From: an uncultured Alphaproteobacteria bacterium
Lineage (GTDB): Bacteria; Pseudomonadota; Alphaproteobacteria; Rhodobacterales; Rhodobacteraceae
DNA: 47,681 nucleotides
NCBI GenBank assembly: GCA_902600895.1
Contig: CACKLF010000011.1
Span: 1 to 47,681 of the forward strand
Direction of reading: 5' to 3'
Shown here: piece by piece, positions 12,520 to 17,578 of the stretch
Layout of the letters: every line of letters begins with the position of its first letter
Numbering within the stretch: the first letter of the stretch is position 1
Position numbers and translations under genes: made by a program
Notes under the pieces: generated by a model
Database searches by the model: none
Seen by the model: only the letters and a program-made list of their open reading frames with translations
What the model was told of the DNA's origin: nothing

Positions 12520-13251
12520 CTAGAGTGGGGGTTTTATAAAATTCTTTAATCTTTCATAAAAAGGATAGGCCATTTCAACTATCGACTTTTGGTAGTCTGT
12601 TAAATTCGGATATGTTATTCTCTCTTTTATAAAACATGAACTTTTATAGGTATTTTCGTACCATACTGAACCCCATGTTCCATCATCTGGATGTGGCCCC
12701 TTGGGCCAAAATAACATTTCTTCTCTAAATCCAATACCAGCATATTTACACATATTTTTTAGTACGGATTCAGGGTGATCTAATAAATCTGCAGATGCAA
12801 TTACTAAAGGGGGCACCTCATTCCTATTCAATAAATATTCAAAAAGTGTCACTTGTTGCTTTATGCCGATATCATCTAACTCAAAGTTTTCAACTTTTTC
12901 ATTGAAACTTTTGACAACATGTTCAGGTTTTCTAATTAAAAATACATTATATATATTATCTAAGAAACTTAGGTCTAAATCTGAAAAAATGTGATGTGCC
13001 ATTTGCTTCTGATATAGCACTTTTTTGTTGAAACAAAAGTCAGAGCAAATCTTACTTACTTCTTCATAACTCGTGCTCATAGAAGCAATGATTTCTTCCC
13101 TAAGTGGATGCATTTTACTTGATCTGTGCAAATATGCACCATAAAAAGGTTCATCTAATACTTTACAATCACCACGATTCGCAAAACTTCTCATTAACGA
13201 TGTTGAGACATTCCTAGGACCGGACCAAACTGCAAGCCTAATTTTAGTCAT
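12520..13251 (-). CDS. P-loop sulfotransferase-like protein coupled to a class IV PLP-fold gene
   Basis: About 243 residues. The N-terminal SGPRNVSTSL (residues 10-19) matches the 5'-phosphosulfate-binding loop of PAPS sulfotransferases and FLIRKPEHVVKSF (Arg107, Ser115) resembles the 3'-phosphate-binding motif, so the fold is assigned with fair confidence. Sulfotransferase activity is inference, since the family also holds non-sulfotransferase P-loop proteins. A TTG at 13257 is possible, but the ATG at 13251 begins right before the first strand and I prefer it. It overlaps the end of the class IV gene by eight bases, so the two are translationally coupled. As I recall, plant BCAT-like proteins carry both domains fused. 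It converges on pnp with 53 bases between. Confidence 0.78.
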   Translation of the reverse strand: MTKIRLAVWSGPRNVSTSLMRSFANRGDCKVLDEPFYGAYLHRSSKMHPLREEIIASMSTSYEEVSKICSDFCFNKKVLYQKQMAHHIFSDLDLSFLDNIYNVFLIRKPEHVVKSFNEKVENFELDDIGIKQQVTLFEYLLNRNEVPPLVIASADLLDHPESVLKNMCKYAGIGFREEMLFWPKGPHPDDGTWGSVWYENTYKSSCFIKERITYPNLTDYQKSIVEMAYPFYERLKNFIKPPL

Positions 13252-14146
13252 ATCCAATCTTTTTTCTATAAAGGCTCTTTATCTTATTGGTAATAGGCGT
13301 ACCTGATGTTCCTATAATTTTACTATCAATTTGATAAACACTTGTCTGACCAGAAAATGTACCAGTAATAAATGCTTCGTCTGCTCCATAAGCTTCCAAA
13401 AGACTATAATTTTTTTCCTTTACTACGATACCATTATTGTTACAAATTTCTATTACTTTTGACCGAGTAATTCCATTCATGCAATAATCGCCAGTTGAAG
13501 TCCAAACTTCTCCAGATCTAACAATAAAAAAATTGCAAGCATTAGTAGTATTCACAAAACCATTCGGGTCTAACATCAAAGCTTCATCTCCCCCTGCTTC
13601 CTTGGCTTGCAAACAAGCAATTATACAGTTTAATTTTGAATGACTATTCAGCTTAGGATCCTGACTCATTGGCAAACCTCTAACTTGGGGAACAGTAACT
13701 AACTTAATCTTCTTATCTGATTTGTTTCCCAATGGGATAGAATGCTCCATGATAATTACAAGAGTCGATCCAAAGATGGAGAAGTCAGGGTGTTGAAATG
13801 GTCTAACCTTCTCTCCCCTAGTTAACATCAATCGTGCATGTACGTCTTTAGTCATTTTATTAGCTAGTCGAGTTTTTTCTAAAGCTGATAATATACCTTT
13901 TTTATTCATTGCAGGATCAATTCCAATAGCACTTGCAGCTTCAAAAAACCTATCCAGGTGTTCAGATAAAAATACCCATCGGGAATTATGTAACCTAATG
14001 CCTTCCCAAACACCGTCGCCTAACAAAAAACCACTATCATAGACAGATATTTTTGCCTCATGTCTTGGTAATAATTCACCATTTACATAAATCAATATAT
14101 CATTGTTTCTAGGGTCCTCTTCAGCAGAATGGGTAGATACCATCAT
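13244..14146 (-). CDS. Class IV aminotransferase-fold protein with unusual active site
   Basis: About 300 residues of the D-amino-acid/branched-chain aminotransferase fold (fold type IV): YDSGFLLGDGVWEGIR near residues 36-51, LGDGVWEG being the N-domain hallmark, and GDEALMLDPNGFVNTTN further on. Two positions look altered. Aligned by eye to the usual family, the Schiff-base Lys position appears as Asn167 in the stretch PKLNSHSKLN, with Lys165 and Lys171 nearby, and the Glu that contacts the PLP ring nitrogen appears as Thr200. So the reaction may not be transamination. GGAG lies five bases before the ATG at 14146 (eight before ATG 14143), while the GTG at 14152 is too close. It leads the pair with the sulfotransferase-like gene. 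Confidence 0.8.
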   Translation of the reverse strand: MMVSTHSAEEDPRNNDILIYVNGELLPRHEAKISVYDSGFLLGDGVWEGIRLHNSRWVFLSEHLDRFFEAASAIGIDPAMNKKGILSALEKTRLANKMTKDVHARLMLTRGEKVRPFQHPDFSIFGSTLVIIMEHSIPLGNKSDKKIKLVTVPQVRGLPMSQDPKLNSHSKLNCIIACLQAKEAGGDEALMLDPNGFVNTTNACNFFIVRSGEVWTSTGDYCMNGITRSKVIEICNNNGIVVKEKNYSLLEAYGADEAFITGTFSGQTSVYQIDSKIIGTSGTPITNKIKSLYRKKIGYD

Positions 14147-15429: not shown

Positions 15430-16170
15430 CTAACTCTTCCAGCCAGTGAAACAAAATATATCAAATGTAACATTGAAGTTACCATCTGATTGAGAAAAGT
15501 CCCTTTTGTAGTTCTCTACCATCAGATTGAAGAGCTTCTTGGTTAAAAATGTTTTCTTTCGCTTGTCAATTACATTCGTCTCTCCCATTCTGCGCAAATC
15601 AATGAATAATCTATTCAAGGAAGAATATTGTATTCTGTGAGAAATTAGGTCTACCACTGTATTTTTTAATCCGGCTTTTACCAGTAGATTACCAAAAGTC
15701 TTTAATTCCATCATAGGAGCTACTCTTACTGATAAAGAACTCTTCAGTTCGATTTCAGCCTTGCTAAATGAACTTCTTAGCTCATTCAATGTATTGCCGC
15801 CAAAAAGATAACCCATTAACAACCCCTCCGAATTTAAACTCATTCGCAATTGAATAAGTTTTCCAAGTGGATCATTAGCCCAATGAAGGCAAAGGCAATG
15901 CATAATAAAATCGTACTGCTTTTTTAGATTTAAATTATCTGAGTCGATTCCTTCTTCAAAATCAAGGTCCCTTATATGATTCTGCCAATGTTCGGTGAAT
16001 GGTCCAATCATTATCCGCCTGTCAAAATCTCTATTTATATCGGTGAGTCTTTCTTTCAAATCTTCAGCTAAGAGTTTACAGATAAAGTCCTCATAGCCCA
16101 ACAAGTTTGCTCTAGCTCTTCTATTATGTAAGAGATCCATATCGAATAAATTTTTAACGCTGTTAGACAT
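15430..16170 (-). CDS. NDUFAF5-like methyltransferase-fold protein
   Basis: About 246 residues resembling alphaproteobacterial homologues of NDUFAF5, a complex I assembly factor that hydroxylates an arginine in mitochondria. Recognisable: FDMDLLHNRRARANLL at the start, CLCLHWANDPLGKL, LFGGNTLNELRSSFSKAEIE, SVRVAPMMELKTFGNLL, FIDLRRMGETNV, and the final FDIFCFTGW. The SAM-binding motif I, normally a DLG-type glycine-rich loop, reads MIGPF (residues 54-58) here and has lost most glycines, so SAM use is doubtful. A TTG at 16176 is possible; the ATG at 16170 is preferred. It is divergent from the marR gene over 160 bases. Confidence 0.8.
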   Translation of the reverse strand: MSNSVKNLFDMDLLHNRRARANLLGYEDFICKLLAEDLKERLTDINRDFDRRIMIGPFTEHWQNHIRDLDFEEGIDSDNLNLKKQYDFIMHCLCLHWANDPLGKLIQLRMSLNSEGLLMGYLFGGNTLNELRSSFSKAEIELKSSLSVRVAPMMELKTFGNLLVKAGLKNTVVDLISHRIQYSSLNRLFIDLRRMGETNVIDKRKKTFLTKKLFNLMVENYKRDFSQSDGNFNVTFDIFCFTGWKS

Positions 16171-16330
16171 AGACAAAAAATCTCACTAAATCGTAAATGA
16201 TACCCATTAAATAGTTGGACATTTACTGTAGCAATTTCCTATGAAAAAATCACAAATAAATTGCAAAAAATTCAATCAGTTATAATGTATAGGTATGGGT
16301 TTTATTACCATTCGAAATACTAGATAACAT

Positions 16331-16852: not shown

Positions 16853-17578
16853 ATGACTAAAAATGAAACTAACATCCTTATAATTGGCAGCGCTCCCTCA
16901 GCGCTTGCAGCTCAAAAATGGAATTTAAGTTCCTTTAATAAGATAGTTGTAATTAATAATGCATGGCAAATTACATCAAATTGGACAAATTCAATATTTC
17001 CTGAGGATTTCCCCGTTGAGAAGCGACCAAAGCCAAGTAGATGGCAAACTTTACATTCAGCGGCTGAATATGTCAGGGCTCAAAACCATTATGGAGGTTT
17101 TGTCTATGCAGGGGGAACTATGGCCTTTACCGCTGCGTATTGGTCGCTGTTTACCTTTTCTCCTTCCTTAATAGCCTATCTAGGATGCGACATGGTCTAT
17201 TCAGGAACAAAAACGCATTTCTACGGTAAAGGTACACCCGATCCATTAAGAAAAGATAAAACACTGAAAAATCTTCGGGCTAAGTCGGCTAGGTTTGAAT
17301 GCTTCGCATCTAAAGAAGGTTGTGCGGTTATAAATTTATCAGTAATGCCCAATAGCAATCTTGTACATCAACAAATGTCCCTAAATGAGTTAAATTTTAG
17401 TCATGTAAAACCAAAAAAAATAGATGCAGAACAATACACCAGAAATCTAGAAATGGAGAAACGTCTTGGTTACTATGTAGCTGATGGTAGGTATTGGAAA
17501 AAGATGCAAGATTTTCGTGAAGATGAAATTTTGAAACTAGATGAATTATGGATTAAAACTTTGAAAAACTTCAACTGA
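16853..17578 (+). CDS. Unrecognised protein with GT42/DUF115-like layout
   Basis: A 241-residue soluble protein I do not recognise with certainty. Its layout resembles GT42 sialyltransferases and DUF115-type glycosyltransferase-like proteins: an N-terminal strand then GSAPS (residues 12-16), a VINNAW segment (33-38), an [15 protein letters not shown] helix in mid-protein, LGCDM (110-114), an aromatic/His stretch THFYGKG, and [11 protein letters not shown] (160-170), where the sialyltransferase family has a CPNS-like element. This likeness is by eye and unproven. No signal peptide or membrane segment. It follows marR by 36 bases and its TGA overlaps the end of convergent ubiG by eight bases. 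Confidence 0.68.

Follow-up and report, generated by a model that had tools for sequence, protein, structure and literature searches.

Two overlapping genes in a genome of the Rhodobacteraceae raise the question of whether a PLP-fold protein of class IV and a P-loop protein resembling a sulfotransferase (ST) work together and, if so, on what. Both lie in the window, the whole stretch of 47,681 nucleotides that was analysed (Table 1). Plant BCAT-like proteins are said to hold both domains in one chain, and a preliminary description of this DNA had proposed a joint function on those grounds, with a sulfated derivative of an amino or keto acid as the possible product.

The gene pair in the window

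According to the preliminary description, the ST gene starts inside the end of the class IV gene with an overlap of eight bases. Direct reading of the minus strand bears this out, the class IV stop being the TAA at 13246-13244 and the ST start the ATG at 13251-13249; an alternative ST start (TTG 13257) would extend the overlap to 14 nt. Three start candidates are available for the class IV gene (GTG 14152, ATG 14146 and GTG 14140), and homologues of the protein start near 14140. The next gene upstream of the pair is hemH, and rpsO and pnp, as read from the sequence, lie past its end on the opposite strand. Further upstream, a gene for a BioC-like methyltransferase (15430-16176) precedes hemH on the same strand, its match to TIGR02072 reaching 74.7 bits and thus remaining below the cut-off of 184.95. 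After a gene for a MarR-family regulator, positions 16853-17578 encode a protein of 241 aa with no Pfam match at E 0.1.

Table 1. Features of the class IV and sulfotransferase genes in the window
Feature	Positions	Strand	Remarks
Class IV (fold type IV) gene	13244..14146	-	298-302 aa; PF01063 match
Sulfotransferase (ST) gene	12520..13251	-	243 aa from ATG 13251; PF19798 match
8-nt overlap, class IV stop / ST start	13244..13251	-	Direct sequence reading
Asn codon (N169, 302-aa numbering), Schiff-base lysine position	13646..13648	-	N in 141/141 rows
Thr codon (T202), pyridine-nitrogen glutamate position	13547..13549	-	T 131, S 10 of 141
Candidate 5'-phosphosulfate-binding loop S10-T17 SGPRNVST	13201..13224	-	S10, G11, P12, R13, N14, S16, T17 invariant, n=36
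Candidate 3'-phosphate-binding motif R107-S115	12907..12933	-	R107, P109, V112, S115 invariant, n=36

Co-occurrence of the two genes in Pseudomonadota

The two genes were sought genome by genome within the Pseudomonadota, in a set of 101 genomes, made up of that of the window and 100 relatives, and in a sample of 299 genomes from the phylum, with G000 and G055 common to both. A class IV gene was called at E <= 1e-60, and these matches were checked for the asparagine described below where they had been fetched as loci (30/43 in the 101-genome set and 25/25 in the 299-genome sample). Of the 101 genomes, 42 carry an ST gene, four weak second matches being disregarded, and 43 a class IV gene. The latter is present in all 42 ST genomes and in only one of the 59 others (Fisher's exact p 8.9e-28, a value that ignores shared ancestry). 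The same holds within the window's own family, where 39/39 ST genomes carry the class IV gene as against 1/22 of the rest (p 1.8e-15, ancestry again ignored). In the phylum sample, 30 genomes matched the ST, eight of them so weakly (E 3e-8 to 6e-4) that they were excluded from the count; none of these eight has a class IV gene. A strong ST match was obtained in 22 genomes and a class IV gene in 25, the latter comprising 22/22 ST genomes and 3/277 others. When both sets are pooled, a close ST homologue is present in 62 distinct genomes, and every one of them carries the class IV gene, a result that disposes of the concern that the pair might be confined to this one genome. The converse fails in four genomes (G015, G316, G341 and G374), which have a class IV gene and no ST gene. 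No confirmed relative of either protein was found in viral contigs, nor any match in phage records, which were searched with the ST alone.

In most of these genomes the two genes are also neighbours. Taking less than 500 bases as side by side, this is the arrangement in 30 of the 42 ST genomes of the 101-genome set, a share above what chance would give. In G003 the ST gene comes first and the class IV gene follows. In the phylum sample a class IV gene lies within about 1.5 kb of the ST gene at 16 of 22 loci; these include all nine outside the window's family, and at one locus (L130) the order is again reversed. Among 80 loci from named genomes, which were fetched by similarity to the class IV protein, an ST match is present in 38 and on the same strand in 37, the exception (L077) being a partial match on the opposite strand; two Alteromonas loci (L062 and L084) hold the pair. 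In total, 57 same-strand neighbouring pairs with the class IV gene first were examined, the window being counted twice. The start of the ST gene overlaps the class IV stop in 36 of the 50 that could be assigned (35/49 without the duplicate window), and 25 of these 36 overlaps measure 4 or 1 nt. A class IV-ST fusion was found in none of the 57 bacterial pairs.

The genes lie apart in 12/42 ST genomes of the first set and in 6/22 of the phylum sample, or 17 genomes given that G055 is shared. In these split pairs both genes are still present, even when they lie on different contigs or replicons. Their surroundings were read in all 17 genomes, with the anchor lost for 2/17 ST and 1/17 class IV loci and with the reading limited by ORF calling that is crude in GC-rich DNA. 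At least seven of the 17 unlinked ST genes (L211-L215, L217 and L221) have malic-enzyme or kinase genes on one side and argG on the other, which is the site of the paired genes in many relatives, and the class IV gene of these genomes is found elsewhere. The clearest case is G035, where the ST gene sits on the 3.79-Mb contig C1 and the class IV gene on contig C6, a stretch of 16,801 bases that shows full identity to plasmid pDSHI05 of Dinoroseobacter shibae.

This retention of both genes without linkage points to a joint function rather than to a common descent of neighbours. Inheritance alone would account for the stable setting of the pair in many Rhodobacteraceae, where it is flanked by what read as the housekeeping genes mutS, malic enzyme, msrA and argG. 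However, it is hard to reconcile with a co-occurrence that persists where the genes are unlinked, or with the maintenance of the pair in other contexts such as that of Alteromonas, and it is considered highly improbable. With the same crude ORF calling, no consistent third partner was found near the pair, the flanks being housekeeping genes in many Rhodobacteraceae and variable elsewhere. In a tree built from class IV sequences, 7 changes are required for the label "ST beside it", compared with 47.9 when labels are shuffled, and paired forms occur in deep branches as drawn; this tree was built by a quick method with midpoint rooting, has many weak forks and long branches, and counts L152, a canonical paralogue from the window's genome, as having no ST. 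The functional link of the two genes put forward in the preliminary description is therefore borne out by their co-occurrence, the unlinked cases included, and a joint function of the pair is well supported.

A class IV protein outside the canonical transaminases

The class IV protein matches PF01063 (Aminotran_4, E 1.4e-36), and comparison of its predicted structure (mean pLDDT 81.8) with solved ones confirmed fold type IV, with Z 28.2 to the archaeal BCAT 5e25. Despite this, the two residues on which PLP chemistry depends in this fold are replaced (Table 1). The figures for both positions come from an alignment of 141 rows, which represent 140 distinct proteins (the window protein appears twice) and 134 clusters at 95% identity, a further row with the canonical paralogue L152 having been left out; asparagine also occupies the Schiff-base lysine position in 80/80 loci of the named genomes. 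This position was assigned through the structures 7z79 and 9j32, the latter, titled as the mutant N174K, reading LKSHSRLN where 7z79 reads LNSHSRLN. Three canonical paralogues of the same genome retain glutamate at the ring-nitrogen position, and the lysines of these paralogues are aligned in or close to the asparagine column, where two alignments disagree. Since the PLP-binding lysine and the ring-nitrogen glutamate are both missing, no normal transaminase work is to be expected, and the protein falls outside the canonical transaminases. This weighs directly on the version suggested by the preliminary description, in which an active PLP transaminase would provide or use up the sulfated amino or keto acid. 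The PF01063 match and the fold speak for it, but they are outweighed by the loss of both residues in every row and by the NCBIfam search, in which 19 models match the protein and none reaches its cut-off (best 205.9 vs 363 bits), so that this version must now be regarded as quite improbable.

What the family has kept is equally informative. R53, T229 and T263, which we take to be residues of the phosphate cup, are fixed throughout the 141 rows, as are several positions peculiar to the family, namely H105, K/R115 (K 139, R 2), N169, H171 and K/R173, several of which surround the site of the old lysine. A fold and a phosphate cup maintained after the loss of both key PLP residues are what would be seen in a pseudoenzyme, which as a scaffold or sensor would bind a phosphate ligand and control the ST or keep it stable, with no chemistry of its own. 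The one-sided dependence between the genes, in which a close ST was never found without a class IV gene and four genomes show the reverse to fail, would also suit such a role. Against it stand the family-specific fixed His and Lys/Arg residues and the stronger conservation of the class IV protein, which at the same loci shares 60-67% identity with the window protein (44% at one locus) as opposed to 37-42% for the ST. The pseudoenzyme reading also has to accommodate class IV genes that lie without an ST in import cassettes with ABC transporters, a setting that suggests an activity of their own, and we hold it to be unlikely, if by no means negligible.

Class IV genes standing alone

At several loci the class IV gene belongs to a cassette with an amino-acid ABC transporter, to which a ClC channel or a ProC-/ornithine-cyclodeaminase-like gene is often added. 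Such import cassettes were found in Agrobacterium, P. savastanoi, Pantoea, Paracoccus and Yoonia. In three of the four genomes without an ST gene (G015, G316 and G341), the class IV gene adjoins transporter genes of this kind as read from the sequence, and the ClC channel was confirmed for G341; among the 11 loci of that reading the anchor was lost in 2. Other stand-alone neighbourhoods differ. Besides, class IV relatives were found in 20 plasmid records, none of them among the four with an ST match, a comparison made between plasmid records and extended to the chromosome for D. shibae. The presence of the class IV gene without ST in four genomes, on plasmid records and in import cassettes suggests that the protein also works alone, and an activity independent of the ST is probable from this genomic context.

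Some of these loci deserve a separate mention. The class IV gene, the amino-acid ABC transporter and the ClC channel are found together at L145 (4957-11697), L146 (8146-12550), L251 (5936-12506) and L265 (4305-10171), and the cassettes of L145 and L251 contain a ProC-like gene as well. With such a channel next to the import genes, the substrate could be one that releases a halide or another anion. Sulfatase genes occur near two unpaired class IV genes, one annotated as choline-sulfatase betC (L144, 14202-15719) and the other read from the sequence (L090, 8936-10477).

The partner protein has a sulfotransferase fold

The ST protein belongs to PF19798 (Sulfotransfer_5; E 6.1e-54), with 183.3 bits against a cut-off of 23.2 and a match that covers profile positions 2-223 of 226. 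Its predicted structure (pLDDT 91.9) matches TPST2 in Foldseek (E 5.4e-8) and reaches Z 15.1 to both 4gox and 5wrj, 216 residues being aligned to 4gox with an rmsd of 3.7. Three elements, W9-SGPRN-x-ST17, D33-E34 and R107...S115, do not vary among 36 ST sequences and are presumably donor-binding parts, and the S10-T17 loop and R107-S115 presumably represent the donor-binding motifs of PAPS sulfotransferases. The preliminary description had left room for a kinase-like P-loop protein. That reading was discarded in view of the sulfotransferase fold and the expected motifs: an arginine stands at the position of the Walker lysine and the nearest folds are sulfotransferases, adenylate kinases appearing among the Foldseek matches listed at E ~1e-4 and TM 0.29-0.34.

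Four distant ST homologues are carried by plasmids, and no class IV gene was found in the stretches read around them, which means that the partnership is a trait of the close ST subfamily and not of PF19798 as a whole. On two Streptomyces plasmids (L149, 3478-8720, and L247, 3467-8720) the ST homologue lies near cysD and cysC together with nonribosomal peptide synthetase genes, clusters that, judging from their gene content, probably make a sulfated peptide. Around the ST homologue of a third Streptomyces plasmid, no cys gene was seen in the part that was read. On a Dolichospermum plasmid (L148, 6001-7929) a PF19798 ST gene is followed by cysC, with amidohydrolase and 2OG-oxygenase genes nearby. 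Membership in PF19798 was confirmed for L148 and L149, and L247 was found by similarity.

Sulfate activation in genomes with the pair

If the ST uses PAPS, the genomes that carry it would be expected to make this donor. An APS kinase is present in 36 of the 42 ST genomes, including the window's own; this number counts G022, where the gene is a fragment at a contig end and scores below the cut-off. No APS kinase was found in the other six (G009, G020, G028, G033, G064 and G093). A recheck with PF01583 yielded nothing in four of these genomes and weak matches in G028 and G064 which, although just over the Pfam cut-off, correspond to an ABC ATPase and an AAA_33/APH protein. For PF01747, the ATP sulfurylase of the Sat type, no match was found in any of the six, and a PF01507 gene (CysH/CysD) is present in five, G093 having none. 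The failure to find APS kinase in six of 42 genomes leaves PAPS as a donor that is not secure. It is weak evidence of absence for G009 (82% complete), G020 and G033, which are fragmented or less complete; G028, G064 and G093 are 98-100% complete and have intact ST motifs. As a gene that might travel with the pair, APS kinase shows no enrichment (36/42 vs 41/59 in the other genomes, p 0.096; within the window's family 35/39 with ST vs 20/22 without, p 1), and CysQ is uninformative, with matches in 100/101 genomes at E <= 1e-20. At L263, on contig C1 of G093, the pair is present in a genome that is 99% complete and has no match to the APS kinase, Sat or PAPS_reduct families.

These six genomes, and in particular G064, with two PAPS_reduct-family genes and no APS kinase found, and G093, which matches none of the sulfate-activation families tested, would be explained if the protein kept the ST fold and used another 3'-phosphoadenosine or phosphate donor to transfer something else. 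The presence of APS kinase in the large majority of ST genomes, a fold and motifs that are those of PAPS enzymes, and the distant homologues near cysC all count against a donor other than PAPS, as does the poor assembly of half of the exceptions, and we consider such a donor rather unlikely.

A putative joint function and its product

Taken together, the two genes would constitute one functional unit whose product is a small metabolite, sulfated or sulfonated, and in which the repurposed class IV protein handles the substrate, a reading to which we give a probability of about 0.45. In this scheme, the class IV protein would act as a substrate-handling enzyme or carrier for a phosphate-bearing ligand, be it an adduct of PLP or PMP or a substrate that is itself phosphorylated, and would supply a small substrate bearing an amine or acid group. 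The ST would then transfer a sulfuryl group to that substrate, with PAPS as the most likely donor, and the product might serve as a solute for salty habitats. Of the proposal made in the preliminary description, the joint function stands, on account of a co-occurrence that extends to unlinked genes, and the working transaminase that makes a sulfated amino or keto acid is not supported, given the missing lysine and ring glutamate.

A sulfated or sulfonated solute would fit, as far as annotations and habitats can tell. Many record titles with the pair name genera that we take to be marine, among loci that were fetched by similarity to the query. In a study of six Erythrobacteraceae strains with a table of 113 clusters linked to salt tolerance, clusters 1089 ("Aminotransferase class IV") and 1090 ("Sulfotransferase") both show a co-occurrence of 0.81 with this trait (PMC10040529); they are likened here to the pair by annotation name alone. 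The same table lists two further sulfotransferases, and the pair receives no comment in the section with the table (PMC10040529). The head group of the roseobacter sulfonolipid (SAL) was also considered as a product and is unlikely because D. shibae, represented by G035, carries both genes without making SAL (PMC8319176).

A more specific chemistry can be imagined, in which the lysine-less PLP-fold protein would pass an amino-acid adduct, e.g., a PLP- or PMP-bound aminoacrylate derived from serine, to the ST, and a C-S bond formed from PAPS would give a cysteate-like sulfonate. We give this cysteate route only a slim chance. We know of no gene that has been assigned to a 2-aminoacrylate sulfotransferase. 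An activity of that name is used in a metabolic model (PMC7990286). Among the matches listed in literature searches there was no paper on the pair, the table of PMC10040529 being the one place with both annotations; the word "aminotransferase" does not occur in the main text of PMC12506393, and PF19798 is also named in PMC11625862.

What makes the pair important is that a partnership of genes so close to perfect, in bacteria that are common, points to an undescribed sulfur metabolite or reaction. If it is true that plants carry a fused form, the same chemistry may take place in crops.

Comparison with known systems

On the ST side, the PAPS sulfotransferases, including tyrosylprotein sulfotransferases and the olefin-synthase and CurM domains, have the fold (Z 14-15) and the candidate PAPS-binding motifs in common with the protein described here. 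The latter differs from them in its length of 243 aa, in an identity of 10-16% among the matches compared, in having a Pfam family of its own (PF19798) and in its class IV partner. The homologues on Streptomyces plasmids are PF19798-like as well, but they are set among nonribosomal peptide synthetase genes and, in the stretches read, have no class IV gene.

On the class IV side, the branched-chain and D-amino-acid transaminases of PF01063 share the fold and the phosphate-cup residues with the class IV protein, which in contrast has neither the catalytic lysine nor the ring glutamate and shows other fixed residues. Its nearest solved relative is 7z79, an "aminotransferase-like protein" of Variovorax paradoxus (E 4.8e-81, Z 31.2), on which no paper was found in our literature search. 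Both proteins have the same fold, with 43% identity over 291 aligned residues, and both carry asparagine at the lysine position, within LNSHSRLN in 7z79 and LNSHSKLN in the window protein. The combination of the class IV fold with the motif xNSHS(K/R)LN is thus present here as in the lysine-less family of 7z79, and 9j32, the N174K mutant of the V. paradoxus relative, matches the class IV model with Z 29.0. The gene pair provides a context for 7z79, a crystal structure whose title assigns no reaction to the protein.
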